A stretch of DNA of 64,000 bases from Leifsonia virtsii (lineage in GTDB: Bacteria; Actinomycetota; Actinomycetes; Actinomycetales; Microbacteriaceae), in NCBI RefSeq assembly GCF_030433675.1, contig NZ_JAROCB010000006.1:1-64000 (forward strand). The letters are read 5' to 3'. Every line of letters starts with the position of its first letter. The stretch's first letter is position 1. The notes under the pieces were generated by a model. It was not told the DNA's origin, made no database searches, and was given only the letters and a program-made list of their open reading frames with translations. Made by a program: the position numbers and the translations under genes. Positions 3,452 through 18,375 of the stretch are shown one piece after another.

Positions 3452-3580
3452 CGACCTTACCGACCCCGGACCAGCGACCGAGAGTGAGAACAAACCACCT
3501 CGGTCTCACCACAGCATCAGCCCGCTTCGGGCGAATCCGTGAGCGCCGAGCGCTCTAACCTAACCAAGGGGGAAATCACC

Positions 3581-4828
3581 TTGAGCACTGAGAACACCGA
3601 GGCCGCGCGTCCGCGAGGTCTGAACCGGCTCTGGACAGGGGCACACTCGCATCGCGGGTCCGCGATCGCGGCGGGTGCGAGCGCTGTGGTCATCATCGCG
3701 GCGGCCGCCGTCGGCATCCCGGCGGGCATCAGCACCGTGCAGCACTCCGACGCCGATGCGGCCTATCAGGCTGCCCGCGTTAAGGCGGTCACGCAGTACC
3801 GGCAGGACCTCAAGGCGCAGAAGGAGTTTGCCACCGCTCTCGCGGCCGCCGGTGCCCTACAGAAGCAGCTGACGCAGATTCACGACGAGGCCAAGGCCGG
3901 GAAGTACCTGCCGGATGCGCAGGTTAAGGCGCTGGATGCACAGCTCGCTCAGTTGAAGATGTACGCCGCCTTCAAGGCCGGAGCTCCGGTCCAGGACCCG
4001 CGCCCAGCTGGTAAGCCGTCCTCGACGACCGCGCAGCTTCGGAGTGAGACAGCACGGCTGACGGCGCTGTTCGATCGTCAGGCCGGTGCGGCGGGCAACA
4101 CGCTGAAGGGCGGCCCTGGGATTACTGCCCAGGTCAAGACGACCAATCGAGCACTCGCTCAGATCGTCACGGGCCTGGACAAATCGGCCAACGTGGCCGC
4201 CGTCCCCGCCCTCGATGTCGACGCGAAGGGCATCATCACGGCATTGGCGAAGGCGGGTCAGGGCGAAAAGGACGCACTGGCGAATGCTGCGGCCGCGGCG
4301 AAGAAGGCCGTGACGGACGGCAAGAGCCCTGCACCTCTGCTGCTGGACTTCCTGGCCAAGGCCAAGGCAGTGCACGACTCGCATGACAAGACAGTCGCGG
4401 CAGAGGCGGCAGCGGCAGCGCAGGCCGCGGCCGAGGCGGCTGCTCGGGCTGGTCAGTCCAGCTACACAGATCCCAGCACGGGAGAGGTTCGCCAAACCCC
4501 ACGCGGGAGCGGCGGCGGCGGCCGTGGCGGATCGGGCGGCGGAGGTTCCACCGGTGGCGGAGGTTCCACAGGGGGTGGCGGTTCTGCCGGCGGCGGCGGT
4601 TCCACGGGCGGTGGCGGCGGCGGTGGCGGCTATACGCCTCCGCCGGTGGACCACACCCCGCACGTCAACGCGGGCGGCGCATACACGCCCGGCTGCGATG
4701 GAGCCTTCAGCTACTCGCAGACCACCTCGAGCGGCGGGGCGATCAGCATCAACGTCGGCTACCCGTACAGCTACAGCACGTTCTCGACCTCCGACGGGTG
4801 GGGCCTCTCGGTCTACGCTTGCATCTAG
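3581..4828 (+). CDS. membrane-anchored extracellular protein with coiled region and glycine-rich linker
   Basis: 415 residues from the TTG at 3581, chosen because AAGGGGG lies 8 nt upstream; a GTG at 3539 in frame has no ribosome-binding site. After ~30 cytoplasmic residues comes one membrane helix (SAIAAGASAVVIIAAAAVG). A long Ala/Lys/Gln-rich helical region follows (~60-300), then a linker with repeated GGGGS units (~320-375), and a ~50-residue C-terminal domain rich in Tyr/Ser with two cysteines that could form a disulfide. The layout suggests a stalk holding a small terminal domain outside the membrane. No enzyme motif was seen and the family is not recognised. Confidence 0.6.
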   Translation: MSTENTEAARPRGLNRLWTGAHSHRGSAIAAGASAVVIIAAAAVGIPAGISTVQHSDADAAYQAARVKAVTQYRQDLKAQKEFATALAAAGALQKQLTQIHDEAKAGKYLPDAQVKALDAQLAQLKMYAAFKAGAPVQDPRPAGKPSSTTAQLRSETARLTALFDRQAGAAGNTLKGGPGITAQVKTTNRALAQIVTGLDKSANVAAVPALDVDAKGIITALAKAGQGEKDALANAAAAAKKAVTDGKSPAPLLLDFLAKAKAVHDSHDKTVAAEAAAAAQAAAEAAARAGQSSYTDPSTGEVRQTPRGSGGGGRGGSGGGGSTGGGGSTGGGGSAGGGGSTGGGGGGGGYTPPPVDHTPHVNAGGAYTPGCDGAFSYSQTTSSGGAISINVGYPYSYSTFSTSDGWGLSVYACI

Positions 4829-4965: not shown

Positions 4966-5706
4966 TTAGGGAGCCACGGCCGCGACCATCACCACCGTGC
5001 GGCCGTCCTCCGTCGACGCCGACGCGAACGACACCTCAGTGCCTGTCGACGCCAGCAGCAGTTGCCGCACGTCCGCGGGGCCATCCTTCTGCGCAGAGCC
5101 GAACAGCAGGATCTTCTCGTCGATGCCGCCGGCGCCGGCGATCAAGGCGACTGGTCTCCCGCACAGCGTCGTGACGCCGAACGCAGACTTCCCGTCGTAA
5201 TCGTGAGTATGTTCGCGCACCCAGCTCTCCATGCACGTGTCGGGCACTAACGTCGCGGCGACGGGTTGTGCCGCGGATCCGCTCACCATCGCGCGCGCCA
5301 TCAGCAGGTCCTTCGTGAAGGAGTCGGCGAACAGCGCCGTCGTCGAGCGCGCCGGCGATGCGGGATCAGCCGCACCTGCCGGCATCGTGCGGTTGGCGGC
5401 CACCTGCGGCTGCGGTGGCGGCGTGTAGGCCGCCTCCGGGTCCTGACCGGACTTCGCGTTCGCCTCCTCGCGCTTCTTCTCGTCGGCCGCCGCCTCCTGC
5501 CTCATCTTCAGCTCCGCGGCCGCGCGTTTCTCCTTCGTCTCGCCGACCGGGTGGTGCTGCGCGTACACACGGTCGGCCGCCGACTGGGCACCCAGCGCGC
5601 CCACGCCGAAGAAGAGACCTCCTGCGGCGATCGCCACCGCGGCGGCGGCTCCAGCCACCGTGAAGGCTTTCCCCCGCGGCGACATTCCCTTCCTGTGCGC
5701 GCTCAC
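4966..5706 (-). CDS. membrane-anchored protein, last gene of the pilus-like operon
   Basis: 246 residues. The start is the GTG at 5706, which overlaps the TGA of the preceding gene (GTGA), so translation is coupled. A short basic N-terminus is followed by one hydrophobic segment (AFTVAGAAAAVAIAAGGLFF), then a charged, probably helical region (KEKRAAAELKMRQEAAADEK), a proline-rich linker, and a ~130-residue extracytoplasmic domain with two cysteines (DTCMESW, TTLCGRP). The frame remains open far upstream, but that is antisense overlap without meaning. Its position suggests an accessory or assembly factor of the pilus. Function unknown. Confidence 0.6.
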   Translation of the reverse strand: MSAHRKGMSPRGKAFTVAGAAAAVAIAAGGLFFGVGALGAQSAADRVYAQHHPVGETKEKRAAAELKMRQEAAADEKKREEANAKSGQDPEAAYTPPPQPQVAANRTMPAGAADPASPARSTTALFADSFTKDLLMARAMVSGSAAQPVAATLVPDTCMESWVREHTHDYDGKSAFGVTTLCGRPVALIAGAGGIDEKILLFGSAQKDGPADVRQLLLASTGTEVSFASASTEDGRTVVMVAAVAP

Positions 5707-7712
5707 GGGAGCACCGTCACCGTCACGCCCGCACCGACCGGACTCATCGGACTGACGTATCCCCACGGAGTGGCGCAGTTGTACTGCGCGTTCGTGTACG
5801 TCACGTTGCGGGCTACCGCGTTGGGAAGCTGCCAGTAATCCCCGAACCCGAAGTTGTGCCAATACTGGCCGCCGCCCCAGTCGGTGGACATCCAGCCGTT
5901 CGAGTTGAGGTTCGATCCGGCGGCGCAATAGGTGACGTAGTTCACCGCGAGCGACGAGCAGCCGCTGGGGGCGTTGCACGTCGAGTGCGTCCAGTAGACC
6001 GGGGCCGTGTACGTGTAGATGTTGTAGGCATTCCACACCGGCGCGCCGGGCTGCGCCATGGGGGTGATCCACTCGCGCGATTGCACCTGCACGACGGGGC
6101 TGTAGAGCCCGGTGGGCGACGCGCATCGGGTCTGAAGCCCCATCCCGTAGGGGTAGCCCTGGAGCGCGTATGAGGGCCCCCAGTTCACCTGGGTGAGGTT
6201 CGCGGTCCACGGGCCCTGGTACTGAATGGCGTTGTTGTACGTCTTGCTCGTGGTGCCTGCATGGTTCTCAAGCTGCGACGCCTGCAGCGTCGTTCCCGCC
6301 GGGCACGTGCCGGTGAAGTTCCACTTCACATTGCCCGAGACGTAGTTGCCGTTGTAGCCCGTGCGTGTGTAGGTCATGTTGGCCCCCGCGGGGGTGGTCG
6401 GCCAGGCCGTGGCGATCGTGGCGGGCGCTGACTTCACGACGTCCTGGCTGACGGTCGCGTTGACCCAGAACGTGATCGTGGCACCGTACGTCGTACCGGT
6501 CGTAAAGGTCATCGTTGCGGTGAGCGCTGTGGTGTTGGCCATGTCGTTGTCGGTGCCGAAGTTGGTCGCCCACTCCGGCCGGTACATGGTCGAGAGGCTG
6601 GAGACCGCCGACCAGCTGAGAACATACTGCTCGGGCGTGGCGCCCTGCTTGACGGTCAGTAGAGGCGTCGGCACCGATTGGTGATAGTCACGCTGATCCT
6701 GCACGGTCATGCTGTTGTCGCCGCAGGATGCAACGGCAAGGACGGTGCCCTCGCTGCCGTTCTGCACGCCTGCGAGTTCCACGGCGTATGCGGCTCCCGT
6801 GAGCGGGACCACCGTGATGGTGGAGACTGGCGGCAGGCCGGTGGGGGCGGTGGGGGTGTAGGTGATGGTCAACGTGGTGGTTCCTGCCGCGCAGACGCCC
6901 CCGGTGATGGTGATGGTGGCACCTTCTCGGACGCCGGAGTAGGCGGCTCCCGCGCTCGTCGAGCGTCCGATCCCGGTGATGGTCAGCTGTGACGGCGCGA
7001 CGACGGGTGTCGCCGGGGGGACGTAGTGAAGACTCGGGTCCGCCTGCGGCACGTTGGTGATCCGGGTGGTGCCGACGTACTGGCGGCTCTTCGCGTACGT
7101 GCCGACGCGATCGGCAGCGGTCGAAAGGTCCAGGGTGACGCGGTAGGGGCGCAGGTCCGTCCAGTCGGCGTCTGAGACGGTGGAGGGGCGGGATCCGCTC
7201 GCGAGGGTGGGGTTGCCGGCGATGTCGAAGGTGATCGTTCGGCCGCCGAGGTTCTCCACGGCGAAGGTCACCGTGCTCAGCTCCCCTACCTCGAGCGTGC
7301 CGTCGGTGCTTGGGAAGGTCGCCGCCGGGGTGCTGGCCGTGCAGGCGCCCGCCGTCGTCGTCTCCTTAGTGAAGACTGCCTTGTGGCCTCCTGCTTCGCC
7401 CGCCTCCCACACCTTGACGCCGCAGCTCCCGGCTGCGGTGGTTGTGAGGATGGCGATCGCACTATCGCCTAGGCCTTTCACCACGGTTGAGGCCTGCACG
7501 TCCTTCTCGAACTGCAGGCTATTGACGTTATACCGGCCGTTGGTGGCGGCCGTGGCGGAGACTGACGCGATCAGCGTCGCGACGACGACGAACAGTATCG
7601 CCGCGACGGTGAAGACCTTGACGCCGATTGGGAGCGCCACAACCTCCTCGCGAAGATTCAGCTCGCCGCGACGGTCGGTCAGCAGGGTGCGGAGGTGAGT
7701 TCTGAGCTTCAT
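5703..7712 (-). CDS. large pseudopilin-like surface protein
   Basis: 669 residues; ATG at 7712 with GGAAG about 10 nt upstream, 5 nt after the previous stop. The N-terminus (RTLLTDRRGELNLREEVV) carries the DRRG motif shared by two neighbours, just before a membrane helix (VKVFTVAAILFVVVATLIA). The rest is Thr/Ser/Gly/Tyr-rich with beta repeats of fibronectin or Ig-like character (TITGIGRSTS, GATITITGG) and several paired cysteines near the C-terminus. Inferred: processed by the operon's prepilin peptidase and displayed as a minor pilin or tip adhesin. A simple membrane anchor is the alternative. Confidence 0.6.
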   Translation of the reverse strand: MKLRTHLRTLLTDRRGELNLREEVVALPIGVKVFTVAAILFVVVATLIASVSATAATNGRYNVNSLQFEKDVQASTVVKGLGDSAIAILTTTAAGSCGVKVWEAGEAGGHKAVFTKETTTAGACTASTPAATFPSTDGTLEVGELSTVTFAVENLGGRTITFDIAGNPTLASGSRPSTVSDADWTDLRPYRVTLDLSTAADRVGTYAKSRQYVGTTRITNVPQADPSLHYVPPATPVVAPSQLTITGIGRSTSAGAAYSGVREGATITITGGVCAAGTTTLTITYTPTAPTGLPPVSTITVVPLTGAAYAVELAGVQNGSEGTVLAVASCGDNSMTVQDQRDYHQSVPTPLLTVKQGATPEQYVLSWSAVSSLSTMYRPEWATNFGTDNDMANTTALTATMTFTTGTTYGATITFWVNATVSQDVVKSAPATIATAWPTTPAGANMTYTRTGYNGNYVSGNVKWNFTGTCPAGTTLQASQLENHAGTTSKTYNNAIQYQGPWTANLTQVNWGPSYALQGYPYGMGLQTRCASPTGLYSPVVQVQSREWITPMAQPGAPVWNAYNIYTYTAPVYWTHSTCNAPSGCSSLAVNYVTYCAAGSNLNSNGWMSTDWGGGQYWHNFGFGDYWQLPNAVARNVTYTNAQYNCATPWGYVSPMSPVGAGVTVTVLP

Positions 7713-7717
7713 GTCGT

Positions 7718-9337
7718 TCACTTCCAGGTCGGGGCGGTGAAGCCGTCGGGTCGGGGCATGCGGATGGGCGTTCCGGGGGTCGTCGCGTCGAGGGTGGCGG
7801 GCCACAAACCCGTGCCCCCGCTGCCGATGCTCCAGAGCACGTTGTCGGCGTCGAGGAGGGCCGTAGCGGTCGATGCCGGCGTCAGCTGCAGCGGGCGGAG
7901 CGTGCGTAGGTTAGGAATCAGGGTCGGGGTGGAGAGGACCGTTGGCGTGGGCAGTCCGAGGATCCCGCCGGCGTTGTCGCCCCATGCCCAGACGCGCCCG
8001 TTGACGTCGGTCGCGAAGGCGCGCGATCCGGCGGCCGCGATCGCGGTGTAGACGCCCGGCGCGGCGACTGCGGTGGGGACGGTGCGGGTTGTGAGGGTGC
8101 CGTCGCCCACCTGCCCCTTGGCGTTGATCCCCCACGCCCAGAGTTTGCCGGTGGTGTCGACCGCGTAGGCGGTGTTCGCGCCGGCCGCGATGGCAGTGAA
8201 CTGCGAAGCGAGCGTGACCAGCTTCGGGGTGGGGGACGCGGTTCCGGGAGTTCCGTATCCGAGCTGACCGCTGGTGTTCGACCCCCAGGCCCACAGCCGC
8301 CGGGTGGTGGAGATCGCGTAGGTGTTGGTGCCGCTTGTGGCCACGGCCGTGAAGCGCTCGGTCGTGGGCACCTGGACGGGAGCGCTGTAGCTCTTGCCAG
8401 CGCCGTCGCCGATCTGGGCGTTGGAACCATCGCCCCAGGCGAAGAGGACACCTGCGGTGTCGATGGCGAACGTCGTGGCACCAGCGCTGCTGATGGCGAC
8501 GAAGCGGTGGTTCGGGATCTTGGTCGGCGTGCACGTGCTGGTTGTAGTGCCGATGCCCAGCTGGCCCCGCGTGTTGTCGCCGACTGCCCAGGCCTGGCCG
8601 GAGGAGTCGAGGAAGAACGTGGAACCGTTGCCGCTGATGATGCTGCGGACGGTGACCCCTCCAAAGCTCAGCTTGGTGGGGGCTAGCGGCGAGGTGGTGG
8701 CATTGCCGATTCCCGTCTCGCACTTGCTGTTCGGACCGTAGGCCCAGAGCTGGCCGGTGTTGTCGATGCCGCCGTTGGTGGTTGCCAGAACCCACTGAGT
8801 GCCTGCTGTCGGACCCTGCATCTGGTCGGGGGTGACCTTGGTGATGCTGCCGGAGGCGACGCCCCAGACCGTGAAGGTGTGTCCTTCGCTGGTCTCCACC
8901 CAGGTGGGGCGGCCACGGTCATCGAGGGCCGTGATGTGGGTGACGTCGGACGCTTTGATGGTGATGTCGCGGGTGATCGTGGTCTCAGCGTCGAGCGAGT
9001 CAGCCTGAACGCGCAGGGTCTGGACTGCCCCGTCGGCGCTGGGCGTGACGGTCAGGATCTGCGTGCAGATTCCCGGGTTCACGGAGCATTCGCGTCCCGT
9101 CGTAGTGGACGCAGGCTGAGCGAGGTTGGCGTCGAGTTCGGCCGCATAGTGGTTTGCACGGCTCTCGACCGCGAGGGTCAGCTGTCGGAGCTGCGCGCTG
9201 GTGTTGTTCTGGGCGGCCGTCTGATAGGTACTCACGGCCAGCGCGCCGAGGCCGAGGAGGGCAATCAGCCCGAGCCCGACGGCCGGGATGCTGCTTCCGC
9301 GTCGGTCGGCGAGAAGGCGGCGGACGTTTGCGATCAT
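7718..9337 (-). CDS. pseudopilin-like protein with RCC1-repeat beta-propeller
   Basis: 539 residues; ATG 9337 overlaps the upstream stop as ATGA. The N-terminus has LLADRRGSSIPAVG and a hydrophobic segment, as in prepilin-type anchors, followed by a ~130-residue pseudopilin-like stretch. From ~residue 190 on, repeats of the form WAWGxNxxGQLGxGT recur at about 50-residue spacing (WAYGPNSKCETGIG, WAVGDNTRGQLGIG, FAWGDGSNAQIGDG, WAWGSNTSGQLGYG, WAWGINAKGQVGDG, WAWGDNAGGILGLP), which is the RCC1 signature. RCC1 folds are seven-bladed propellers used for protein binding. Inferred: a binding module displayed at the pilus, possibly the tip adhesin. Confidence 0.75.
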   Translation of the reverse strand: MIANVRRLLADRRGSSIPAVGLGLIALLGLGALAVSTYQTAAQNNTSAQLRQLTLAVESRANHYAAELDANLAQPASTTTGRECSVNPGICTQILTVTPSADGAVQTLRVQADSLDAETTITRDITIKASDVTHITALDDRGRPTWVETSEGHTFTVWGVASGSITKVTPDQMQGPTAGTQWVLATTNGGIDNTGQLWAYGPNSKCETGIGNATTSPLAPTKLSFGGVTVRSIISGNGSTFFLDSSGQAWAVGDNTRGQLGIGTTTSTCTPTKIPNHRFVAISSAGATTFAIDTAGVLFAWGDGSNAQIGDGAGKSYSAPVQVPTTERFTAVATSGTNTYAISTTRRLWAWGSNTSGQLGYGTPGTASPTPKLVTLASQFTAIAAGANTAYAVDTTGKLWAWGINAKGQVGDGTLTTRTVPTAVAAPGVYTAIAAAGSRAFATDVNGRVWAWGDNAGGILGLPTPTVLSTPTLIPNLRTLRPLQLTPASTATALLDADNVLWSIGSGGTGLWPATLDATTPGTPIRMPRPDGFTAPTWK

Positions 9338-10137
9338 TGAGTGGCTCCAGCGTCGTAGACGAGAACGGTGTCGGCCGCGGCTGGACCGTCGGCGACGACG
9401 AAAGTGACGGGGGCGCCGGCCAGGACGGGGACCGTTCCGAAGTAGTTGGTGGGGGCGTTGGTGAGCGGGATGGTCGTAAGCCGGACACCTCCTTGCATGA
9501 TGCGCAGCTCGCCACTGGGCCGCGTCGACCACGCGTGCACGAGGTAGCGCCACGCACGATTCGTCGTGGGCTGTGCTGTCGCGAGCACGCCGCCGGTGGG
9601 CACCGGGACTGCCTCTTTCTTCACCGATGGATCGACCTGGCCGATCGGTGCAGCCATGGACGGGTCCATGCGGAGGATCGCGGCTGGGACGAGGGTCGTG
9701 ACGTCGTCAGCACGGAACGAGCTCGCCAGAACGCACTGCGGGTCGGAGACGGAATCGGACGTCTTGCACGCGGTGGACGGAACTCTCACGCTGCGGGAGA
9801 GCATCGCCCGGTAGGTGGTGCCGCCGGGGGCGGGCTCACTCCAGGTCACCGCGGTCGCGTGCGTGCCGGAGGGAAGGGTGAGGTCGACGCTGCGCGGGGC
9901 GGCGACGGTGCCCCAAAGGGTAGAGGAGCGGCGGTCGTCGACGAGCGCCGTAGCGGCGCTGAGGCGTTCGGCCGAGCTGGTGGTCGCGGTCATGATGGCG
10001 GTGGTGGTGGGGGCGGCGATCGCCGCAGTCACGGAGACGATCGACACGACGATGAGCGCGATCAGGACGTCGCGGAATCCGCCTCGACGGTCGGTAAACA
10101 GCCGTCGGGCGGTGGTGAAGCCGAGCATTGAGTGCAT
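9334..10137 (-). CDS. minor pseudopilin-like protein
   Basis: 267 residues; ATG 10137 preceded by GGAGG at 5-nt spacing. The leader ARRLFTDRRGGFRDV matches the DRRG motif of the two following genes and precedes a long hydrophobic helix (LIALIVVSIVSVTAAIA). The remainder is Ser/Thr-rich with two cysteines (TACKTSDS, DPQCVLA) and no catalytic motif. Its stop overlaps the RCC1-protein start. Inferred: a Tad/type IV-style minor pilin. Confidence 0.55.
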   Translation of the reverse strand: MHSMLGFTTARRLFTDRRGGFRDVLIALIVVSIVSVTAAIAAPTTTAIMTATTSSAERLSAATALVDDRRSSTLWGTVAAPRSVDLTLPSGTHATAVTWSEPAPGGTTYRAMLSRSVRVPSTACKTSDSVSDPQCVLASSFRADDVTTLVPAAILRMDPSMAAPIGQVDPSVKKEAVPVPTGGVLATAQPTTNRAWRYLVHAWSTRPSGELRIMQGGVRLTTIPLTNAPTNYFGTVPVLAGAPVTFVVADGPAAADTVLVYDAGATQ

Positions 10138-10154
10138 GCGATCCTCCGGAGGGT

Positions 10155-10178
10155 GGGGGCGCGGCGGACCGCGCCCCC
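10155..10178 (-). terminator. hairpin directly after the pilin gene
   Basis: A perfect 9-bp stem GGGGGCGCG/CGCGCCCCC begins 10 bp after the pilin stop, with no T-run. Such a hairpin can partly stop transcription or protect the pilin mRNA 3' end, giving more pilin than the downstream minor proteins. Confidence 0.55.
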
Positions 10179-10187
10179 CAACGGTGG

Positions 10188-10574
10188 TTACGGGATGGTC
10201 GGGCAGGCGACGCCGGCGGTTGCGGCGTCAGGAGCGGTGCCCTCGATCACATCGGTGGCGCCCTTGTAGCTGTAGAAGGTCTTGCCGCTGTCGCTGCGGG
10301 CAGTGATGCAGTAGTGGCCGTCGGTGGTGCTGACATCCCACTTGCCCTTGTCCTTCACCAGCGGGTCCGTGCCGGTGGTGAGCTGAGCACGGGTTGCGTA
10401 TGAGCCACCGCTAAGGATGTAGGTGTCCTCGGCGAGTTCCACGTTGTTGATGAGGGTCTTCGCTGAGCCGTCGCTCGAGTTCGCCATGATGGCCGGGAGG
10501 CTCACGATGCCGGCTGCGGCGGCTACGACGCCCACGATGATCGCGGCGATGATCCATTTGAGATTGGTTTCCAT
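10188..10574 (-). CDS. putative major pilin
   Basis: 128 residues; ATG 10574 with GGAGA 6 nt upstream. The N-terminus is almost at once a hydrophobic helix (NLKWIIAAIIVGVVAAAAG), followed by SAKTLINNVELAEDTYILSGGSYATR, the amphipathic helix pattern of type IV pilins, and a small C-terminal domain with two cysteines (HYCITAR, GVACPTIP) likely to form the pilin disulfide loop. It lacks the DRRG leader of the other three pseudopilins and has almost no leader at all. A strong hairpin follows it. Size and position between peptidase and minor pilins favour the major subunit. Confidence 0.65.
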   Translation of the reverse strand: METNLKWIIAAIIVGVVAAAAGIVSLPAIMANSSDGSAKTLINNVELAEDTYILSGGSYATRAQLTTGTDPLVKDKGKWDVSTTDGHYCITARSDSGKTFYSYKGATDVIEGTAPDAATAGVACPTIP

Positions 10575-10646
10575 GGTTGTTTCTCCGTTTCAGGGATTGG
10601 TTAGTTGACGTCGGGTCGGTCAGGTCGATTGGTCGTGGTTGCCTCC

Positions 10647-11117
10647 TCAGCCCGTTCCAGCCAGCAGCGCGGCGGCACCGACGGCCGCGGCGATCGCCAT
10701 GGCCGGTGCGTGAGGCAGCGCGTCGTCGCGATGAGGCCGGATCGTGTAGGTGAGAAGAAGGTGAGCGCCCAGGGCGAGGAGCACGACGCCCAGACCCAGC
10801 GCGAGACTGGAAGCACCGAACGGAAGTGCCAGTAGCGGGGCCGCCTTCACGTCGCCTCCGCCGAATCCGCCGGCGAACCACCCGGTCAGGTAGAAGCCGA
10901 AGGCGGTGGCGGCCGCCAACGCCGCAGTGATGACCTGGGTGGCTGAGACTCCGTCGTGTCCCAGCGCGCCGACAACGAGCGCACCGAGACCGACGACTAC
11001 CTTGCCGTGGATGAGCCCGGTTCGGATGTCTACTGCGGCGAGGACCAGAAAGCCAGCGGCCGCGACGGCCGCGGCGGTGAAGGGCACTCCGGTGCCGCCG
11101 GCGAGCAGCTCACCCAA
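10647..11117 (-). CDS. short A24-type prepilin peptidase
   Basis: 156 residues from the TTG at 11117, chosen because GGAGG lies 5 nt upstream and the start overlaps the preceding stop; the open frame to 11168 is longer but unsupported. It is an integral membrane aspartic protease: the two active-site aspartates are in AAVDIRTGLIHG and in GGGDVKAAP (the GxGD motif). The N-terminal methylase region and its CxxC zinc motif are absent, as in TadV/CpaA-type peptidases. It should cleave the pilin-like proteins encoded just downstream. Confidence 0.8.
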   Translation of the reverse strand: MGELLAGGTGVPFTAAAVAAAGFLVLAAVDIRTGLIHGKVVVGLGALVVGALGHDGVSATQVITAALAAATAFGFYLTGWFAGGFGGGDVKAAPLLALPFGASSLALGLGVVLLALGAHLLLTYTIRPHRDDALPHAPAMAIAAAVGAAALLAGTG

Positions 11118-12297
11118 TCTGTCCTCCGAGCTGTGTGAGGGACAGGCCGATCGGGATGGCGATGGCAAGGCTCATCGCTGAGACGACCGCGAGGACGGTG
11201 TTCTCGATTGCTTTGGTGAGTCGGCGAGTGGTCTTCTGCAGGGCCCGCAGCGACTGCTCGCGGTACTCGTCACCCAGCTTCTCGAGCACTTCGTTCTTCT
11301 GCCGCTGCGAAGAGGTCAGAGACAACCGGCGGGCGAGCATCCAGGGGAACAGCGGCGAGTTGGCGACCGCGGCGAAGTTGAGCCTCTCCCGCTTCTCGCC
11401 GGGTTCGAGCGGCGCTCCGGCGTCCCGTCCTTCCAGACGGTCGGCATGTGCGTTGATGTGCTCGGCCACCGCGGCGTTGCCGCACGCCGCGGCCGCGGCG
11501 CGGAGGGCCTGGACCTCGCTGCGTCCGGCCGAGAGTGCGGATCCGGCCACATCACAAAAGCGGGAGGCGGCGTCGAGTTTGAGAACTTCTCCGTATCCGC
11601 GAATGCGCAGGGATGCGCGGTCGATCTTCGCCACCAGGCGCGCATTCTTGCGTCCGCCGCTGAGCCAGTAGAACCAGAAACCGCCACCGACGACGGTGGC
11701 CACGACGGCCACGACGAGGAGCACCCAGAAGGAGATGGAGAGGACGGCGAGGACGACGGGGAACCCCGGTCCCATGATGTCGGCGTTGGATCCGAGCATC
11801 GGGCCGAGGTAGAGGGCGAACACGCCGAACACGAGGAACGTCATCCCCGCGAGCCCTGCTGGCGGGAGAACAGAAAGGACGGCGTCCCGCTTGATGTTGG
11901 ACTCGCGCTTGAGCTGCTTGGCGGAGCGACGGAGGACCTTGACCATGTCGGGAGTGGTCTTGGCGGAGGAGATCATCTCCCGCGCGGTGCGGGGAAGGAT
12001 CTGGTCTTGATCGGCCAGCGCCTCACGCATCCGCTTGCCCTCCCCCATCAACTGCAGGGCGGCCGCGTAGGCGTTGCCCGCGTTGGTGCCGGCGTACTGG
12101 TCTGCCATGTCTTGCAGGGCCGACTTCTCCGGCGACCCTGCCTCGAGCAGGTCGGCCAGCGCGTCGAAGGTCTCGGCGATGTCCTCACGCTGCAGCCGCT
12201 TCTTCTTCGGACTGCGCTTGGAGGAGGCAGCACGGGGCTGTTCGGCGGGAGCGGTCACCGGGTTGAGTGCCGTGCGAGGTGTGAGCGTGTCGGTCAT
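11110..12297 (-). CDS. type II secretion F / TadC-PilC-like membrane platform protein
   Basis: 395 residues. Three strongly hydrophobic regions (~200-225, ~240-275, ~370-392) separate cytoplasmic helical domains with T2SSF character (ALADLLEAGSPEKSALQDMA, then LPRTAREMI). The N-terminal ~45 residues are Pro/Lys-rich. The ATG at 12297 follows the PilT-type ATPase by 16 bp with AAAGGA upstream. Known: these proteins sit in the membrane and couple the ATPase to pilin polymerisation. It overlaps the peptidase start by 8 bp. Confidence 0.75.
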   Translation of the reverse strand: MTDTLTPRTALNPVTAPAEQPRAASSKRSPKKKRLQREDIAETFDALADLLEAGSPEKSALQDMADQYAGTNAGNAYAAALQLMGEGKRMREALADQDQILPRTAREMISSAKTTPDMVKVLRRSAKQLKRESNIKRDAVLSVLPPAGLAGMTFLVFGVFALYLGPMLGSNADIMGPGFPVVLAVLSISFWVLLVVAVVATVVGGGFWFYWLSGGRKNARLVAKIDRASLRIRGYGEVLKLDAASRFCDVAGSALSAGRSEVQALRAAAAACGNAAVAEHINAHADRLEGRDAGAPLEPGEKRERLNFAAVANSPLFPWMLARRLSLTSSQRQKNEVLEKLGDEYREQSLRALQKTTRRLTKAIENTVLAVVSAMSLAIAIPIGLSLTQLGGQIG

Positions 12298-12313
12298 GTC
12301 TGGACTGTCCTTT

Positions 12314-13369
12314 TCAGGCCGCGTAGGCGTAGAGGTCGTCGAAATGGCTGGGATCTTTGAGAGCGCCGCGCGCCTGGTCGTGGGTGATCCGCCCGTCGCG
12401 CACCAGGTTGGCCAGCGAGGTTTCCATGCCGACGCTGCCTTCGTGGGCGCCGTTGCCCAGCAGGTGCTGGGTGACCAGGTGCACGTCGGAGGACTCACCG
12501 TCTCCGGCGATCAGAAGCGAGAACTCGGGCGAGTTCAGGGCGATCTCTTGCGCGAGGACGCGGCGGCCGTCGGTGCCTGGAAGGAGCTGTTGGGTGACGA
12601 TCGCCTGCAACGCCTGGGTGAGCTGCACGCGAATCAGTGGCTGCTCGGCGCGGGGGAATCGGGCGACGAACCCCGAGATGGTCTCGGCGGCGTTTCCGGC
12701 GTGAGTTGTGGTGATCACCAGGTGACCGGACAGGGCCATCTCGAGCGCCGCGCGCGCGGTCTCGACGTCGAGGATTTCGCCGAGCACGAAGACGCGCGGG
12801 TTGGAGCGCTTGGCGTCCTCGATGCCCGCGGCGAAAGATGCGACGTGAGTACCGACTTCGCGCTGGATGACCAGACGATCAGTCGATTCGTAGCGGTATT
12901 CGATGGGGTCTTCGACCGTGTAGATCAGCAGGTCGCGCAGCTCGTTGAGGCAGGCGGCGGTGGTCGTGCTCTTGCCCGAGTTCGTCTCGCCGGAGAACAC
13001 GACCAGGCCGCGCTGTCGACGAACAAGTTCGCGCATCATCGGGGAAAGTCCGAGCTGGTCGGGCGTGGGAATGGTGCGCGAGATGAGCCGGATGGTCGCA
13101 CTCGGACCGTCCGCACCGATCCTCGCGGCGATGCGGCCGCGATACCGGCTGCCGGGGATGTCGAGCGATGCCCGGGCCTGCAGGCGGGCCTCCAGGTCGG
13201 GGATGTCGAGGCTGTTCACCAGATCGCCGACCGGGAAGGCCAGATCGGGAATGAGCTCGGTGTGTTTCCCGATGGAACGCAGCACTCCCCCGGGCACCAG
13301 GTGGAGATCGGAGTAGCCGGCGGCACCGGATTCGTCCATGACATTGCGAAGGAGGGCGGTGTCGATCAT
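12314..13369 (-). CDS. PilT/GspE-family secretion ATPase, second copy
   Basis: 351 residues, starting at ATG 13369 which overlaps the previous stop (ATGA). Walker A is GETNSGKST, the Walker B-like box is LGEILDVETARAALEMA, and the His box is ITTTHAG. Length and the lack of a long N-terminal domain are closest to PilT retraction ATPases (usually ~340-370 residues). Paired with the preceding ATPase it could give an extension/retraction pair, or the two may form a mixed hexamer. Confidence 0.85.
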   Translation of the reverse strand: MIDTALLRNVMDESGAAGYSDLHLVPGGVLRSIGKHTELIPDLAFPVGDLVNSLDIPDLEARLQARASLDIPGSRYRGRIAARIGADGPSATIRLISRTIPTPDQLGLSPMMRELVRRQRGLVVFSGETNSGKSTTTAACLNELRDLLIYTVEDPIEYRYESTDRLVIQREVGTHVASFAAGIEDAKRSNPRVFVLGEILDVETARAALEMALSGHLVITTTHAGNAAETISGFVARFPRAEQPLIRVQLTQALQAIVTQQLLPGTDGRRVLAQEIALNSPEFSLLIAGDGESSDVHLVTQHLLGNGAHEGSVGMETSLANLVRDGRITHDQARGALKDPSHFDDLYAYAA

Positions 13370-14571
13370 GCGAAGCTCCGTCCGAAGGCGCGGAGTGCTT
13401 CGTCCTGATCGGTGCGTCCGCTCTCGATGAGCGAGCGCACGTTGTGGTCGAAGCCGGTGGACAACCCGTCAGCCACCTCGCGGATTCGGGCGGCGGACTG
13501 GCCTGCGATGAACGCGTCGATGAGGGTGTCATCCATCCGCAGGATGTCGTGGACGGCCTGCAGACCGGCGTACCGGGTCGCTCGGTGCGACGAGAGGGTG
13601 CGCACCAAGCGCTGAGAGATGACGGCGGTGACAACGTCGAGCACAGAGAGAGGGCTGTTGCCGCCGAGTTCGATCAGTCGGCGCAGCGCGGTGAGGTTGT
13701 CCCCCGCGTGAATTGTGGTGATCACTCGCACGCCGGTGCGGGCCATGTCGGCGGCCGCGCGGGCGGTCTCAGCGTCCCGGATCTCGCCGATGAACAGGAT
13801 GTCCGAGTCGGAGCGTACGAGGTGCCGCATTCGGTCGGCGAAGGTGGCGCGCATGTCGGGGTTGTCGACGACCTCGAGCTGCTCGACTCCTTCGAGGACT
13901 CGCTCCACGGGATCCTCGACGGAGGTGATGGATCGGGTGAACTCGAAGCGCTCTTCGCCATGGCGCCAGTAGCTGGTGCGGGATGCGTCGCGCAGGTGGC
14001 ACACGATGCTGTGCGCGGTGTTGGACTTGCCCTCCCGGGTGCGGCCGGCGATGACGATGAGACCGTGCGGCTTGGCGAGTGCCTGGTCGAGGGCCTCCCG
14101 GTTGGTCGCGGTCATCGAGAGCGCGTCGAGGGTTCGCGGCTTCCCCAGCTGCGGGAGGCGGATGACGATATTGTCGCCGTCATCGAAGAGCGGCAGGTGG
14201 ACGACGCGGGCCCGGTAAGGGTAGTTGTCGACCGGCAGTTCGATCTGCCCATCAGCGGACTCCTGCGAGCCGCTGGTGTCGATCTCCGCAGCGGCTTTCA
14301 GGAGGTTGATGGTCGCCTCGGCCTCGTCGGCGTCGTCGATCGCTGCGACCTCGTGGATGTCCAGCTCATGGCGCGCGCGCATCGACAGGCGGCCCGAGGC
14401 TCCATCGCGGACGGCGTGCAGGTCGGAGACTCCTGCCTCGACGAGTCGGCGCAGGCCCTCGCCCGGCCAGTCGGCTGGCGTGAGGTCGGTGAGGTTCTCG
14501 CGGAGCGCCGCCAGCGGGTCGATGTACGCGACGTCGTCCGCGCTGATGGAGGTGGGGGTTACCAGGGTCAT
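13366..14571 (-). CDS. PilB/GspE-like secretion ATPase, first copy
   Basis: 401 residues from ATG 14571 with GAAGGA 6 nt upstream. Walker A is GRTREGKSN, the Walker B-like segment is LFIGEIRDAETARAAADMA, and the His box is ITTIHAG. The N-terminal ~150 residues form a smaller N2-type domain (GVSDLHAVRDGASGRLSMRA). It is much shorter than canonical PilB (~560 residues), so extension versus retraction cannot be assigned by length. First ATPase gene of the operon core. Confidence 0.8.
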   Translation of the reverse strand: MTLVTPTSISADDVAYIDPLAALRENLTDLTPADWPGEGLRRLVEAGVSDLHAVRDGASGRLSMRARHELDIHEVAAIDDADEAEATINLLKAAAEIDTSGSQESADGQIELPVDNYPYRARVVHLPLFDDGDNIVIRLPQLGKPRTLDALSMTATNREALDQALAKPHGLIVIAGRTREGKSNTAHSIVCHLRDASRTSYWRHGEERFEFTRSITSVEDPVERVLEGVEQLEVVDNPDMRATFADRMRHLVRSDSDILFIGEIRDAETARAAADMARTGVRVITTIHAGDNLTALRRLIELGGNSPLSVLDVVTAVISQRLVRTLSSHRATRYAGLQAVHDILRMDDTLIDAFIAGQSAARIREVADGLSTGFDHNVRSLIESGRTDQDEALRAFGRSFA

Positions 14572-14606: not shown

Positions 14607-14641
14607 GGGGCGCGGGCGTGTGTGAGGGGCGCCCGCGCCCC
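14607..14641 (-). terminator. 12-bp hairpin between adhesin and ATPase genes
   Basis: GGGGCGCGGGCG (14607-14618) pairs perfectly with 14630-14641 and starts 8 bp beyond the adhesin stop. Without a T-run on the minus strand it is more likely a partial terminator or mRNA-stability element separating the adhesin from the machinery. Confidence 0.5.
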
Positions 14642-14648
14642 GGTCTGG

Positions 14649-17420
14649 TTACTTCGTGGTCGTGCGCTTGGTGCGTCGAGTGACCGCGAAGAGCACGATC
14701 CCGGCGGCCAAGAGGATGCCGCCGAAGGCACTGCCGATCCACACGGCACCTGCCTCGTCAGAGCCGGTCTTGGCCAGTGCCGTGACGGTCGTGGTTTCCC
14801 CGTCGGCGCCGCACTTGCCCTGGTGGGTGATTTCACCGCGCGCGTTTCGGACGATCTCCACCCAGAAGAAGGTGCCCGCCTCGGTGAAGGTGTAGTCGTC
14901 GGACGTGTACTCGCCGGTGGCAGGCAGCGGCTGGGGCTTGCCGACCTTGACTTCGTTCGCGGCCGCGCACACCGGGGTGGATCCTTGCTGCTTGTAGACA
15001 GCGAACTCGATGGTGGCGTCCTTCGGGATCACGCCCGTCACCACCGCGGTGTCATGACCCTTCTGGCCGATGCTGAGCAGCGGCGTGGCCTTGGTAACGA
15101 CGTCGTCCTCGGCGACGACCGTCTTCTCCTTCTGGTCGCCGCACTCCCCCGTGTTGATGACGGTGCCGTCACCCGTGCGGAAGGTGGCCACCCAGTAGTA
15201 GACGCCGACCTTCTTGAAGATCACATCGGCGGACGGGAACCGTCCCGCCTGGTCGACGGGGACCGGCTTGTTGTAGAAGTACGCCGGGTCGCGCTCGATC
15301 GGTGCGTCGGGAGTCGCCGTCGGCGTCGGTGTTCCGGCGGCCGCCGCGTTCGGGGCAACGGGCTGGTCGGACTCAGGGATGTATCCGGTGTTGAACACCT
15401 CGTTGTCCGCCTCGCACACCGGCTGGTCGCCGAGGTCGTGCTGCAGGTAGGCGGCGAAAGTCACCGTGTTCGGGCAGCTCGTTGCACCGTCAGCGGGCTG
15501 GGTGGTGCCGCAGTAGGAGGCGGGGATCTGGCCGTCGACGATGGCGGTGTCGTTCGTCTCGTCGCCGAGCGCGACCGAAGCGATCGCCTCCGTCGACACT
15601 GTGGGCGGGGAGACCTTGGTGACCTCACCCTTGGTCGCCCACCCGTCGGTCCAGTCCGCGAAGTACCCGGCTCCAGGGCCGTCCTGGATGATCGTCCACA
15701 CGTTCACCAGGTAGCCGGCAGCAGTCGGCGGAGCGGTGATCTCGTCGGAGTGGTAGTCACCAGGTGCGGTCACCGTGACGTCGGTCGTGTGGAATAGCTT
15801 CGCGTCGGCCGGGATGCTGTCACCAGGAGTGGGAGCGGTGTCGCCTTCCACCCAGTACGTCTTGTTCTGGAAGTGCGCAGGAATGGGTGCGCCGCCGATG
15901 GTCGGCCACGGTCCCTGGTCGAGCGAGACGGTCAGAGTGTCCGAGGCGGCATGCCCGAACCCGATCTCGTCCGCGGCCGCCGTCGAGACGCCGGAGAGCT
16001 TGGCGGCGACGACGTGCGCTTCCGCCTGTAGGCCGAACTGATCAGCCCAACGGTATCCGTCCGGCATGAACAGCTGTGCTCCGACGGAGGAGTCGGTGGC
16101 GTCGATGTCCCACACCCACTGGTAGAAACCGGGTGCGTGGTTGGCTGCGAGCACGGAGGGTGCCGTGTACGTACCCGGGCCGTTGAGTGTCACCGTGGCG
16201 GTTCCGGCGACGGATGCCCCGGCCGGCACGGTCGCGGACGGGGTCGGCTGGTCGGCGAACGGGCCATAGAGCGTGCCCTTGGCGACGACGGGAATGTAGC
16301 GACCCGACGTCGTCTGCCGCCAGGGCTGCGAACCGGTGGCGACGTCGGCCTGCAGCGTGTCGGTGAAGCTGCTGCCCTCGTCGACGAACCGGCTCTGCAC
16401 AGAGGTCGTGACGACGGGAGAGAACAGCGTCGAACGCTCGACCGGGTCGCTGGCGGTGATGGTGTAGTTGCCGCGCTGCGGGGTCGTCGTGCCGGCCTTG
16501 ATGACGCGCTGCTGGCCGCCGGTGTAGTAGATCGTGACGTTGCCGTCGTAGGTCCACCCGGCGGGCGCGTTGACGTTGCCCGTGGCGCTGATCTTGTAGA
16601 ACGGGGTGCCGTCAGTCGGGACACCCTTCACCGGGTAGGTCCCGTTGCCGACGCCGTTCTTGGCGCTGCTTCCGGAATCGGTGAAGATGCCGTTGCTCAG
16701 CTGCAGGTTGACGGTGGCTCCGGCCGGGAGGTTCACCACGCGCAGCGAACCGGTGTAGTTGTTGTTGTCGACGCTGAAGCTCATGGAGCCGGTGAAGGCG
16801 GGAACGTTCTGGCGCTGGTTGTACTGGGTCTCTGTCTGGTCCCAGATGTAGTTGAACGCGCCGAGCACCGCCTGGTTGCCGTCGATGTAGTGGACGCCGG
16901 TGTTGTAGCCCTGGCCGTTGTAGTGGGCCCAGGTGGACGTGTACGCGTAGACGTAGGCGTTCACCGCGGCCGCCTGGGTGGCGTCGGCGGTCTGACCCCA
17001 CGTGGTGAGCGCGTAGTTGAGCCGCTGCAGCACGGAACTGCTCAGCGCGTCGCCCATCTCGGTAGTCAGCGCGCCGACGAGGGAAGCTCCCCCGGTCGCG
17101 CCGCTGGGCCAGTCAGCGGAGGAGTCCATGCAGTAAGCGCGAGAGCCGTCGGGGACGACGTAGTTGCCCAGGTAGCCGCCCTCCGGTGTGATCCCGCTAT
17201 AGCCGGCACCGGTGGACGCTGCCTCCGCAGGAGCGAGCGTTCCCATACCGATAGCGCCGACGACGGCGAACGCGCCCACGCTAAGGGCGAACCGCTGCAG
17301 TCGCTTCATCATCGGCGACTTGCGGTGACGTCGACGGGGAAGCGGCGCGTGCTTACCGGCCGTGCGTGTCAGAGCGGCGCGGATCCCACGCCCCTTCGGA
17401 TGTTCGTTCGCGGATTGCAT
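14649..17420 (-). CDS. thioester-domain-like surface adhesin with LAKTG sortase anchor
   Basis: 923 residues. A long N-terminal region ends in a signal peptide (ALSVGAFAVVGAIGMG, cleavage near PAEAAS). The first mature domain has YCMDSSADWPSGA and, ~60 residues on, NYALTTWGQTADATQAAAV, which resembles thioester domains of Gram-positive adhesins with a Cys-Gln crosslink (possible partners C in YCMD and Q in GQT/TQA). Several all-beta repeats follow, then LAKTGSDEAG, a hydrophobic helix and an RRTKR tail. LAxTG is the motif of class E sortases of high-GC Gram-positives; no sortase gene is in the window. The ATG at 17420 has AGGAGAGGA upstream; an in-frame ATG at 17312 is possible. Confidence 0.75.
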   Translation of the reverse strand: MQSANEHPKGRGIRAALTRTAGKHAPLPRRRHRKSPMMKRLQRFALSVGAFAVVGAIGMGTLAPAEAASTGAGYSGITPEGGYLGNYVVPDGSRAYCMDSSADWPSGATGGASLVGALTTEMGDALSSSVLQRLNYALTTWGQTADATQAAAVNAYVYAYTSTWAHYNGQGYNTGVHYIDGNQAVLGAFNYIWDQTETQYNQRQNVPAFTGSMSFSVDNNNYTGSLRVVNLPAGATVNLQLSNGIFTDSGSSAKNGVGNGTYPVKGVPTDGTPFYKISATGNVNAPAGWTYDGNVTIYYTGGQQRVIKAGTTTPQRGNYTITASDPVERSTLFSPVVTTSVQSRFVDEGSSFTDTLQADVATGSQPWRQTTSGRYIPVVAKGTLYGPFADQPTPSATVPAGASVAGTATVTLNGPGTYTAPSVLAANHAPGFYQWVWDIDATDSSVGAQLFMPDGYRWADQFGLQAEAHVVAAKLSGVSTAAADEIGFGHAASDTLTVSLDQGPWPTIGGAPIPAHFQNKTYWVEGDTAPTPGDSIPADAKLFHTTDVTVTAPGDYHSDEITAPPTAAGYLVNVWTIIQDGPGAGYFADWTDGWATKGEVTKVSPPTVSTEAIASVALGDETNDTAIVDGQIPASYCGTTQPADGATSCPNTVTFAAYLQHDLGDQPVCEADNEVFNTGYIPESDQPVAPNAAAAGTPTPTATPDAPIERDPAYFYNKPVPVDQAGRFPSADVIFKKVGVYYWVATFRTGDGTVINTGECGDQKEKTVVAEDDVVTKATPLLSIGQKGHDTAVVTGVIPKDATIEFAVYKQQGSTPVCAAANEVKVGKPQPLPATGEYTSDDYTFTEAGTFFWVEIVRNARGEITHQGKCGADGETTTVTALAKTGSDEAGAVWIGSAFGGILLAAGIVLFAVTRRTKRTTTK

Positions 17421-17532: not shown

Positions 17533-18375
17533 TCAGAGTGCGAAGTCGGCGACGCCGGCAAGCACGGACTCTTGACGTACCCGACCCTGGAAGACGCGTA
17601 GGGCGCTGAGGTGGGTCTCGGACTTGCGCGGGTTGAAGTCCCGGTCCGTCAGGAAGGCGTATAGCAAGGAGGTCTCCTGCGGGTTCGGTCGCCCGCCCCA
17701 GCTGATGTTCGCCACTGCGCGGAGCTCGACTGTGCTGACCGGTGAGAACAGCTCTGCCGCCTCGGCGATGCGCTCGCCCTCGTGACCTTGTCGCGTCGAC
17801 GGGTTGTCCGCCATCCAGCCCACGACGTCGGGCAAGTGCTTGGCCAGCTTGGCGGGTGTGCGCGGTTCGAGGGTCGCGACGGTCAGATCAACGGCTTCGT
17901 CGATGGTCGCACCCTCGCGCGTGCCGTATGACGCCGGGTCCGGGAAGCTGGAGTGGGGAATGCGCAGCTCAGGGTTTTCCAGCCAATCGAACTGGGGGCG
18001 TTGGGAGATCTTCCGTCCGGTGGGGTGAATCTCGCGGTCAACTGCCACGCGTTGGCGCAATCGCGGGCGCCCGGTCTCAATGCCGATCCATTCGCGCACC
18101 AGCGAGGCGGCGTAAGCGAACGGGGACGCGGCGTTCTCGACGAGCGCCCGGCACTGCTCGGGGCTCGTCGCGAAGGAGACGAGGATCAGATTGACCAGAT
18201 CGTCCTCGTCCCGTGCCTGGTAGGGGTGGCCGAGCTTCTGGGCGAGGTTGATCGCGTTAGGGATCAGGTGTCGTCGGATGTGGTCGAGGAAGTCGATCAG
18301 CTGGGCCGAGTTCAAGAATGCGGTCGGGTTCTCCCCCAACGCGGCGACGGCCGCTCGGAACGCGTCCGGGTTCAT
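17533..18375 (-). CDS. hypothetical protein
   Basis: 280 residues; ATG 18375 overlaps the previous stop (ATGA), so the two are coupled. It is soluble and mostly helical (FLNSAQLIDFLDHIRRHLIPNAINLAQKLG), with a mixed middle (RKISQRPQFDWLENPELRIP) and a C-terminus ending SVLAGVADFAL. No membrane segment, signal peptide or catalytic motif is visible. It is the second gene of the minus-strand operon leading into the adhesin and pilus genes, 112 bp before the adhesin. Not recognised. Confidence 0.55.
   Translation of the reverse strand: MNPDAFRAAVAALGENPTAFLNSAQLIDFLDHIRRHLIPNAINLAQKLGHPYQARDEDDLVNLILVSFATSPEQCRALVENAASPFAYAASLVREWIGIETGRPRLRQRVAVDREIHPTGRKISQRPQFDWLENPELRIPHSSFPDPASYGTREGATIDEAVDLTVATLEPRTPAKLAKHLPDVVGWMADNPSTRQGHEGERIAEAAELFSPVSTVELRAVANISWGGRPNPQETSLLYAFLTDRDFNPRKSETHLSALRVFQGRVRQESVLAGVADFAL

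Follow-up and report, generated by a model that had tools for sequence, protein, structure and literature searches.

What is a compact type IV pilus (T4P) gene set doing on a plasmid of Leifsonia virtsii, and why are its genes so unlike those of a related plasmid? The window analysed here is the first 64 kb (64,000 nucleotides) of the 140,496-base contig NZ_JAROCB010000006.1, whose plasmid protein set comprises 142 predicted proteins (40,286 residues). Positions 4966–14571 hold nine genes, g05–g13, located where an earlier first-pass annotation of this DNA put them. All lie on the minus strand, and neighbours overlap or are separated by no more than 72 bases. What was computed directly is the gene content and homology, the conservation of leaders, the plasmid context, and the exchange between plasmids with its breakpoints. 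We interpret the locus as a compact T4P cassette of a Leifsonia conjugative-type plasmid that is exchanged as a block and would, by analogy with the thin pili of IncI plasmids, provide a contact pilus for conjugation; we regard this as probable, though far from certain.

The cassette combines a T2SSE ATPase, a T2SSF platform protein and an A24 peptidase in one locus, all over Pfam cut-offs, as in type IV filament systems. g13 (13366–14571, 401 residues) is an extension-type pilus ATPase of the GspE/PilB/ComGA kind (T2SSE, 165 bits). Its family profile (eight sequences, window included) matched GspE first (4pht, 3.9e-68) and PilF/PilB next, and the NCBIfam models for ComGA (141 bits) and GspE (140 bits) both scored under their cut-offs. 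g12 (12314–13369, 351 residues) is a PilT-type, that is retraction-type, ATPase (T2SSE, 102 bits); its profile, built in the same way, found PilT first (2gsz, 1.3e-83), NCBIfam pilT_fam gave 221 bits under a cut-off of 319, and CpaF appeared among the profile matches of g12 only, not of g13 (E 5e-7). When genome contigs were searched with the g12 family, the best 80 of 568 loci resembled ordinary PilT genes in their titles and identities (30–39%). g11 (11110–12297) is a single PilC/GspF-type platform protein with two T2SSF stretches (NCBIfam GspF, 77 bits, under cut-off). g10 (10647–11117, alternative start 11168) is a short prepilin peptidase (Peptidase_A24, 33 bits against a cut-off of 26.5, scanned from the longer start). 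It had no NCBIfam match, is too small for a methyltransferase domain, and keeps aspartates D47 and D106 (in GGGD) invariant in its family of eight sequences, window included. Read from alignments, the nucleotide-binding motifs of the ATPases and the aspartate motifs of the peptidase are retained.

The other five genes, also on the minus strand, encode g09 (10188–10574, 128 residues), a pilin-like, probable shaft subunit that alignment and an upstream in-frame stop mark as leaderless; g08 (9334–10137), minor pilin-like with leader LFTDRRG; g07 (7718–9337), modular and pilin-like, with leader LLADRRG, an N-terminal pilin-like part and then RCC1 repeats; g06 (5703–7721), large, modular and pilin-like, with leader LLTDRRG, a mosaic between plasmids and the putative tip protein; and g05 (4966–5685), small with an N-terminal hydrophobic segment. 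Pfam matched neither g05, g06, g08 and g09 to any family nor any of the nine genes to a secretin, in agreement with the minimal machinery of two ATPases, one platform, a short peptidase and no secretin that the first-pass annotation had proposed. Profiles of g06 and g08 found no solved structure under E 0.3, and a viral scan with g06 gave 20 pattern matches, none a relative.

The label Tad-like, given in the same annotation, does not hold, because there is one platform protein and a PilT-type ATPase, in place of two paralogous platforms and a CpaF/TadA-type ATPase; the ATPase profiles match GspE/PilB and PilT first. A Tad/Flp pilus was rejected on the single platform, the PilT-type ATPase and the 128-residue pilin. 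The extension and PilT-type ATPases with a single platform are those of type IVa pili, with NCBIfam cut-offs unreached, and the shaft pilin has neither a leader nor a Glu at +5. A DNA-uptake or protein-secretion pseudopilus of the Com or type II secretion kind, not a long pilus, would suit the extension ATPase and platform, which score best to the ComGA, GspE and GspF models, and the part list, which we take to resemble that of Com pili; with a PilT-type ATPase and large modular subunits present, we consider it improbable.

The answer to the second question comes from comparison with the plasmid of L. shinshuensis (bases 1–110,000 of 118,178). The nine cassette genes are 29–51% identical to it (median 41%), with g05 at 31% over half its length, whereas 69 of the 133 other predicted genes match at ≥80% coverage with a median identity of 86%. 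Only four of these 69 well-covered non-pilus genes fall under 52%; the remainder of the 133 are unmatched or have shorter matches. A rank test of cassette against other genes gave p 2e-6, with neighbouring genes treated as independent, which they are not. Two further Leifsonia contigs show similar flanks around other pilus types. In contig C14 of genome G1166, the flanks g03–g05 and g14–g16 are 83–99% identical to the window and 29–84% to L. shinshuensis, whereas g07–g13 are 30–51% identical to the window where matched and 65–84% to L. shinshuensis. Its g10 reached 36% to the window in one comparison and was unmatched in the other, and its g06 is 61% identical to each. Contig C17 of genome G1169 carries a third pilus type (29–45% to the window for g07–g09 and g11–g13; g10 unmatched) beside g14 at 92% and g05 at 81%, with g15, g17 and g18 at only 45–48%.

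Along the alignment, the nearest relative of G1166 switches near 14.65 kb and 6.45 kb. A two-breakpoint fit of the window against G1166, over 4386 informative sites, placed the upstream recombination breakpoint at 14631–14660, at the g13/g14 border, and the downstream one at 6449–6455, inside g06, the latter being the best fit within a gradual switch over about 6.1–6.6 kb; 88%, 26% and 80% of sites favour the window in the successive segments. The log-likelihood gain, obtained by subtraction, was 735 against at most 9.6 in 30 shuffles, which were run on a coarser grid than the fit itself. Taken together, the identity contrast, the same flanks around other pilus types and the breakpoints identify, at the level of sequence, a pilus cassette that is exchanged and whose putative tip protein is a mosaic.

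In the C-terminal part of g06 (5703–6452, minus strand; from about residue 424–450), residues 451–672 are 82–97% identical among the window, G1166 and G1169 and different in L. shinshuensis, whereas residues 1–200 are 30–47% identical for each pair of the first three. Up to about residue 300 the G1166 protein goes with that of L. shinshuensis, and beyond it with that of G1169; g05 travels with the C-terminal part (90% to G1166, 81% to G1169). These patterns make g06 a mosaic with more than one exchange. A g06 homolog occupies the matching place in four plasmids and in genomes G050, G212, G1166 and G1169. We did not meet block exchange of such a cassette, with a mosaic putative tip protein, in the literature searched.

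Could the pilus genes instead have diverged rapidly in place under diversifying selection? Trees, which leave out G1166 and G1169, group the window with L. shinshuensis on long branches for most pilus proteins, as change in place would predict: support is 100 for the families of g13 and g06 (p13 and p6; other families are named likewise), 98 for p8 and 96 for p11, weak for p7 (67) and p12 (51), and p9 is ungrouped. By these groupings, the two sets of pilus genes look like old types of one sub-lineage. The upstream border, however, is sharp, and the cytoplasmic motors are as divergent as the exposed subunits. G1166 moreover joins window-like flanks to L. shinshuensis-like pilus genes with a switch inside g06, which contradicts divergence in place unless its contig C14 is mis-assembled. 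We therefore rate change in place as extremely improbable.

Searched by tblastn, g06 and g08 each had relatives on five plasmids, of which three are from Curtobacterium and the others from Leifsonia and Glaciihabitans; a search with g13 matched 3464 records, of which the nine best were the same five plasmids and four of Arthrobacter type. Apart from CP018784 and NZ_CP099467, these plasmids were inspected, seven in all. They repeat one gene order (ATPase, ATPase, platform, peptidase, pilin, p8, p7, p6), to which those of Curtobacterium and of Arthrobacter type add further genes. The p6 place in the Arthrobacter type holds a shorter protein with no detectable similarity to g06 and was therefore assigned by position. 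A p8 profile, with at most six candidates scored per genome so that misses are possible, detected relatives in 12 of 398 family genomes (near full-length in four, namely the plasmid's own genome, G076, G050 and G212, and partial or weak in the others), 3 of 396 order-draw genomes and 4 of 396 phylum-draw genomes, the last two sets weak except for the own genome. The p6 profile found 5 of 28 genus genomes, one of them partial. The cassette is thus accessory, as far as these scans reach. A further pilin-type gene set lies in G212 (C5 132000–151000, L116), on a large contig that carries the full cassette elsewhere.

The genes of the 140-kb contig mark it as a conjugative-type plasmid: it has a MobF-type relaxase, and type IV secretion system (T4SS) genes beside the pilus. 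The relaxase, of 1257 residues, shows 94.5% identity to a protein annotated as MobF. A coupling protein of TraG/D type exceeds the Pfam cut-offs, an SCO6880-family protein exceeds the NCBIfam cut-off (263 against 60 bits) and a VirB4-like ATPase stays far under cut-off; these three lie at C7 130.1–139.4 kb, and other genes of the transfer stretch have at best weak family matches. The circular L. shinshuensis plasmid carries the same transfer genes in the same order, directly before the pilus genes, and circularity of the window's contig is inferred because an ssb-like stretch, in which the window starts, also adjoins the contig's end. The literature searched gave us no monoderm conjugative plasmid on which a T4P cassette adjoins a T4SS. 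Conjugation-aiding T4P are described for the Gram-negative elements IncI and PAPI-1 (PMC9045228, PMC12857230), and the part of a 2025 T4SS review available to us names no monoderm T4P that aids conjugation (PMC12857230).

From these data we infer filament formation, leader cleavage, retraction, tip position and a mating role, as follows. Working through the platform g11, g13 would extend and g12 retract a filament made of g09. The leader-bearing minor subunits g06, g07 and g08 would be trimmed by the peptidase g10, and g09 would need no trimming because its gene appears to start at the mature N-terminus. The likeliest place for g06 and the RCC1-propeller protein g07 is the tip, where they would act as adhesins. 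The cassette would then most likely draw donor and recipient together for the neighbouring T4SS, as IncI thin pili do. Related plasmids would swap the cassette as a block by recombination, and the extra exchange region inside g06 would alter what the pilus grips. The block exchange suggests that the pilus may help the plasmid to hold or choose a partner cell. If the pilus aids mating, it would be the monoderm counterpart of the Gram-negative conjugation-aiding pili, would account for a possible change of partners in a plasmid that lacks a shufflon, and would give the RCC1 propeller a testable role.

Alternatively, the pilus may attach the host cell to surfaces or other organisms in soil, on plants or in biofilms, with the plasmid as mere vehicle and exchange as niche switching, not mate choice. 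Proximity speaks for mating: each of the four Leifsonia plasmids or contigs carries, no more than about 15 kb from its pilus genes, a coupling protein that passes the Pfam cut-off, so that pilus and DNA-transfer genes are neighbours in each. Several observations count against the mating interpretation. There is no pairing of pilus type with T4SS type, which makes tight physical coupling unlikely: channel genes of three types occur among the four, alike between the window and L. shinshuensis (mostly 89–94%), represented in G1166 by one 34% match and a weak VirB4-like match, and in G1169 by an SCO6880-family protein and a weak VirB4-like match. Of 28 genus genomes, 16 contain relatives of the coupling protein and 5 the pilus, one of these partial; coupling proteins thus being common with or without the rare pilus, mere co-occurrence says little. 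Across the seven inspected pilus plasmids, L. shinshuensis included, PF12696 is over cut-off on four, under it on one (Arthrobacter zg-Y1110) and without a match on two (Glaciihabitans and Curtobacterium MCBD17_040); in genomes, it lies on the pilus contig in G050 and is absent from G212 and G198. Some pilus-bearing records thus have no detected T4SS coupling protein. MobF (PF08751) was found on one of the seven, and six (all but L. shinshuensis) carry FtsK/SpoIIIE-type genes instead or additionally, as do most control genomes. The MOB-suite typing in PLSDB calls all seven non-mobilizable, including L. shinshuensis with its annotated MobF relaxase. As for the pilus itself, no PilM, PilN or PilO match was found by Pfam in the nine genes, the genome's one PilM match being on the chromosome contig C3, and single-sequence structure models of g09 and g07 (mean pLDDT 46.6 and 45.5) were too poor for fold searches. 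Adhesion is further favoured by the neighbour g14, which looks like a surface adhesin, and by the published RCC1 precedent, which concerns adhesion to a host bacterium (PMC12206443). We consider pure host-cell attachment unlikely, yet the strongest competitor to a contact pilus for conjugation; given the looser T4SS link elsewhere and the commonness of coupling proteins in the genus, the mating role, which the analogy suggests, is a working hypothesis.

How close is the analogy? The IncI thin pilus is a Gram-negative type IVb pilus with one ATPase. The cassette differs in lying in a monoderm and in having two ATPases and an RCC1 subunit, and IncI plasmids diversify the tip adhesin by a shufflon, the cassette apparently by recombination between plasmids. 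A shufflon was rejected here, since no inversion array was seen among the repeats listed (the 20 largest direct families and 25 longest inverted pairs). The likeness lies in T4P and T4SS genes on one plasmid, found on the window and L. shinshuensis plasmids as on R64 and TP114 (PilS shaft, PilV tip adhesin), and in a subunit with an exchanged C-terminal part (PMC9045228, PMC12857230). In IncI2 TP114, PilV adhesins are reported to alter recipient affinity, and the pilus to matter in broth and not on a solid support (PMC9045228). PAPI-1 of Pseudomonas aeruginosa likewise combines T4P with VirB4/VirD4-type DNA transfer, but is an integrated element of a diderm, whose pilus is described as essential in all mating conditions (PMC12857230). 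Monoderm type IVa pili, as described for Streptococcus sanguinis, share the single platform, the extension and PilT-type ATPases, the peptidase and modular pilins (PMC6916266); the cassette differs in its missing PilM/N/O match, a peptidase without the methylase part and a pilin without +5 Glu or leader.

Which subunits would the peptidase process? LxxDRRG followed by a hydrophobic helix begins at residue 13 in g06, 8 in g07 and 13 in g08, so the three leader proteins first noticed in this DNA are real. DRRG occurs three times in the 142 plasmid proteins, only in these consecutive genes; from composition, about 1.0 DRRG and 0.10 LxxDRRG would be expected across the whole set. A looser leader rule was weak and unspecific, with 11 of 142 proteins passing against a mean of 6.0 after shuffling. 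In the p6, p7 and p8 subunits of related operons inspected, a Gly directly before the hydrophobic helix is retained; it is invariant in p8 (Gly19, eight sequences) and p7 (Gly14, seven sequences), window included, and was read for p6 from extended reading frames because two p6 starts had been set too late by annotation or gene caller. The residues before the Gly vary by plasmid (GKRG, SERG, DKKG and others). Among the operons inspected, the leader position is thus shared but the exact DRRG is confined to the window's plasmid. We compared the seven residues before the Gly across p6, p7 and p8 of 12 operons, with pilins excluded and octapeptides chosen by eye. Mean BLOSUM62 scores were 11.1 within operons (36 cross-family pairs) and 6.9 between operons (396 pairs), and the observed value was reached by 0 of 10,000 permutations, by 2 of 10,000 without the window, and by 0 of 10,000 after removal of three near-duplicate operons. 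Such likeness within operons is what peptidases specific to the leader type of their own cassette would be expected to produce. The kept Gly and operon-specific leaders thus support the common prepilin-peptidase site proposed in the first-pass annotation; one peptidase per cassette reading one leader type fits these data, which are no proof of cleavage. A class III-type leader with an N-terminal hydrophobic helix is accordingly present in the sequences of g06–g08 and their relatives and absent from g09.

The putative major pilin had been said to lack the DRRG motif, and in g09 LxxDRRG is indeed absent, the first Gly being residue 15. A missed upstream start was rejected: an in-frame TGA lies six codons upstream of the ATG, with no ATG, GTG or TTG between. 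In nine leader-bearing relatives a conserved Tyr, chosen by eye, lies 52 residues (six relatives) or 51 residues (three) after the leader Gly; in g09 the same Tyr is residue 52 counted from Met1. Glu2 of g09 matches Glu2 of the pilins from Glaciihabitans, two Curtobacterium and G212. The Tyr spacing, the Glu2 match and the upstream stop indicate that the gene starts at the mature N-terminus, with Met1 predicted to occupy mature residue 1 of the leader-bearing relatives, which would account for the missing leader. The pilins of the three other Leifsonia cassettes begin one or two residues further upstream (Tyr at 53, 53 and 54), with only short Gly-containing starts (MNPG, MPAGG, MPALNSKEG), so that short pilin starts occur in all four Leifsonia cassettes. 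g09 begins METNL without a Glu at +5, and the nine leader-bearing relatives also lack it. The pilin family profile matched PilA (6xxd, E 4e-4), with next matches at E of at least 0.1 that include geopilin and GspG and also unrelated proteins. A fuller reading, in which the shaft pilin of this lineage bypasses the prepilin peptidase and the enzyme serves the putative tip subunits only, is one we advance tentatively. We did not meet a shaft pilin encoded without a leader in the literature searched, and one starting at its mature N-terminus would test the need for leader removal in assembly.

The missing leader might also mark a remnant pilus system, no longer functional, as might the PilT-type ATPase of G1166 (C14 31285–32423), which is split in two overlapping frames by sequencing error or decay. 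We consider a remnant very improbable: every one of the nine reading frames is open in the window and in G1169, the L. shinshuensis annotation shows them intact, the nucleotide-binding and aspartate motifs are retained, and short pilin starts are found throughout the four Leifsonia cassettes.

The RCC1 repeats first noted in one of the leader proteins are confirmed in g07 (RCC1 149 bits against a cut-off of 21.7; RLD 217 bits; best RCC1-like stretch, residues 277–510). They recur in 10 of 11 g07 relatives scanned, so the refuting condition named in the first-pass annotation, homologous operons without RCC1 proteins and pilin, does not hold. The only relative without them, a 160-residue protein of Arthrobacter zg-Y1110, resembles the N-terminal part of g07 alone. 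An RCC1 protein is a less unusual pilus subunit than had been thought, because there is a published precedent: PilX2 of Saccharibacteria, an RCC1-heptapropeller minor pilin reported as needed for full host binding, whose deletion lowered the host cells bound from about 10.6% to 4.6% (PMC12206443). g07 shares with PilX2 a pilin-like stalk and a C-terminal RCC1 propeller by sequence, its fold model being poor, and the likeness is one of domain architecture. PilX2 differs in serving episymbiosis and in having, as reported, no predicted PilD site, whereas g07 has a clear leader. RCC1 minor pilins and conjugation-aiding pili are thus each already known. A second RCC1-annotated protein lies on the Glaciihabitans pilus plasmid (NZ_CP043654.1 128766–130724), away from the cassette.

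What surrounds the cassette? Upstream, g14 (14649–17312, minus strand) is a conserved flank and a surface protein with an LAKTG-type C-terminus and a TQAA motif, which we take to be thioester-adhesin-like. It is 83% identical in L. shinshuensis, 96% in G1166 and 92% in G1169, has relatives in 82 of 398 family genomes, and had no Pfam or NCBIfam match. The conserved neighbour g15 (17533–18375, minus strand), possibly a regulator, has relatives directly upstream of the extension ATPase in Arthrobacter-type cassettes (24–30% identity in an alignment of six; no Pfam match over cut-off). Downstream, g04 (3539–4828, plus strand), with a hydrophobic segment near its N-terminus, is a conserved flank 79–89% identical in L. 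shinshuensis, G1166 and G1169. At 292–2511 (minus strand) lies a YncE/lactonase-like beta-propeller protein with three CWB2 cell-wall-binding repeats, 92% identical beside the same flank in G1169 and with no counterpart in the searched L. shinshuensis pieces or G1166 stretch.

Elsewhere in the window, two adjacent tyrosine recombinases (Phage_integrase; 34321–38035, minus strand) are 87–88% identical in the L. shinshuensis plasmid. A RES-domain-type gene and a small partner (46256–47364, minus strand), which read like a toxin–antitoxin pair, are 97–98% identical there, the larger being annotated as RES. A second relaxase, of MobA/VirD2 type (47412–48839, plus strand; PF03432, 60 bits), had no match in the L. 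shinshuensis pieces searched. In G1166 C14, presumed T4SS channel genes of a different type (L132, 11.1–19.8 kb) accompany a MobF-type relaxase still 94% identical, which suggests that plasmid modules reassort. Finally, the L. virtsii chromosome (G000 C3 698256–710600) holds a separate, canonical-looking type IVa pilus operon with PilB, PilT, PilC, a GFTLIELL pilin, a 277-residue peptidase and PilM (family models were applied to the ATPases and PilM, and the others read from sequence), and another T2SSE ATPase lies at C5:25528.

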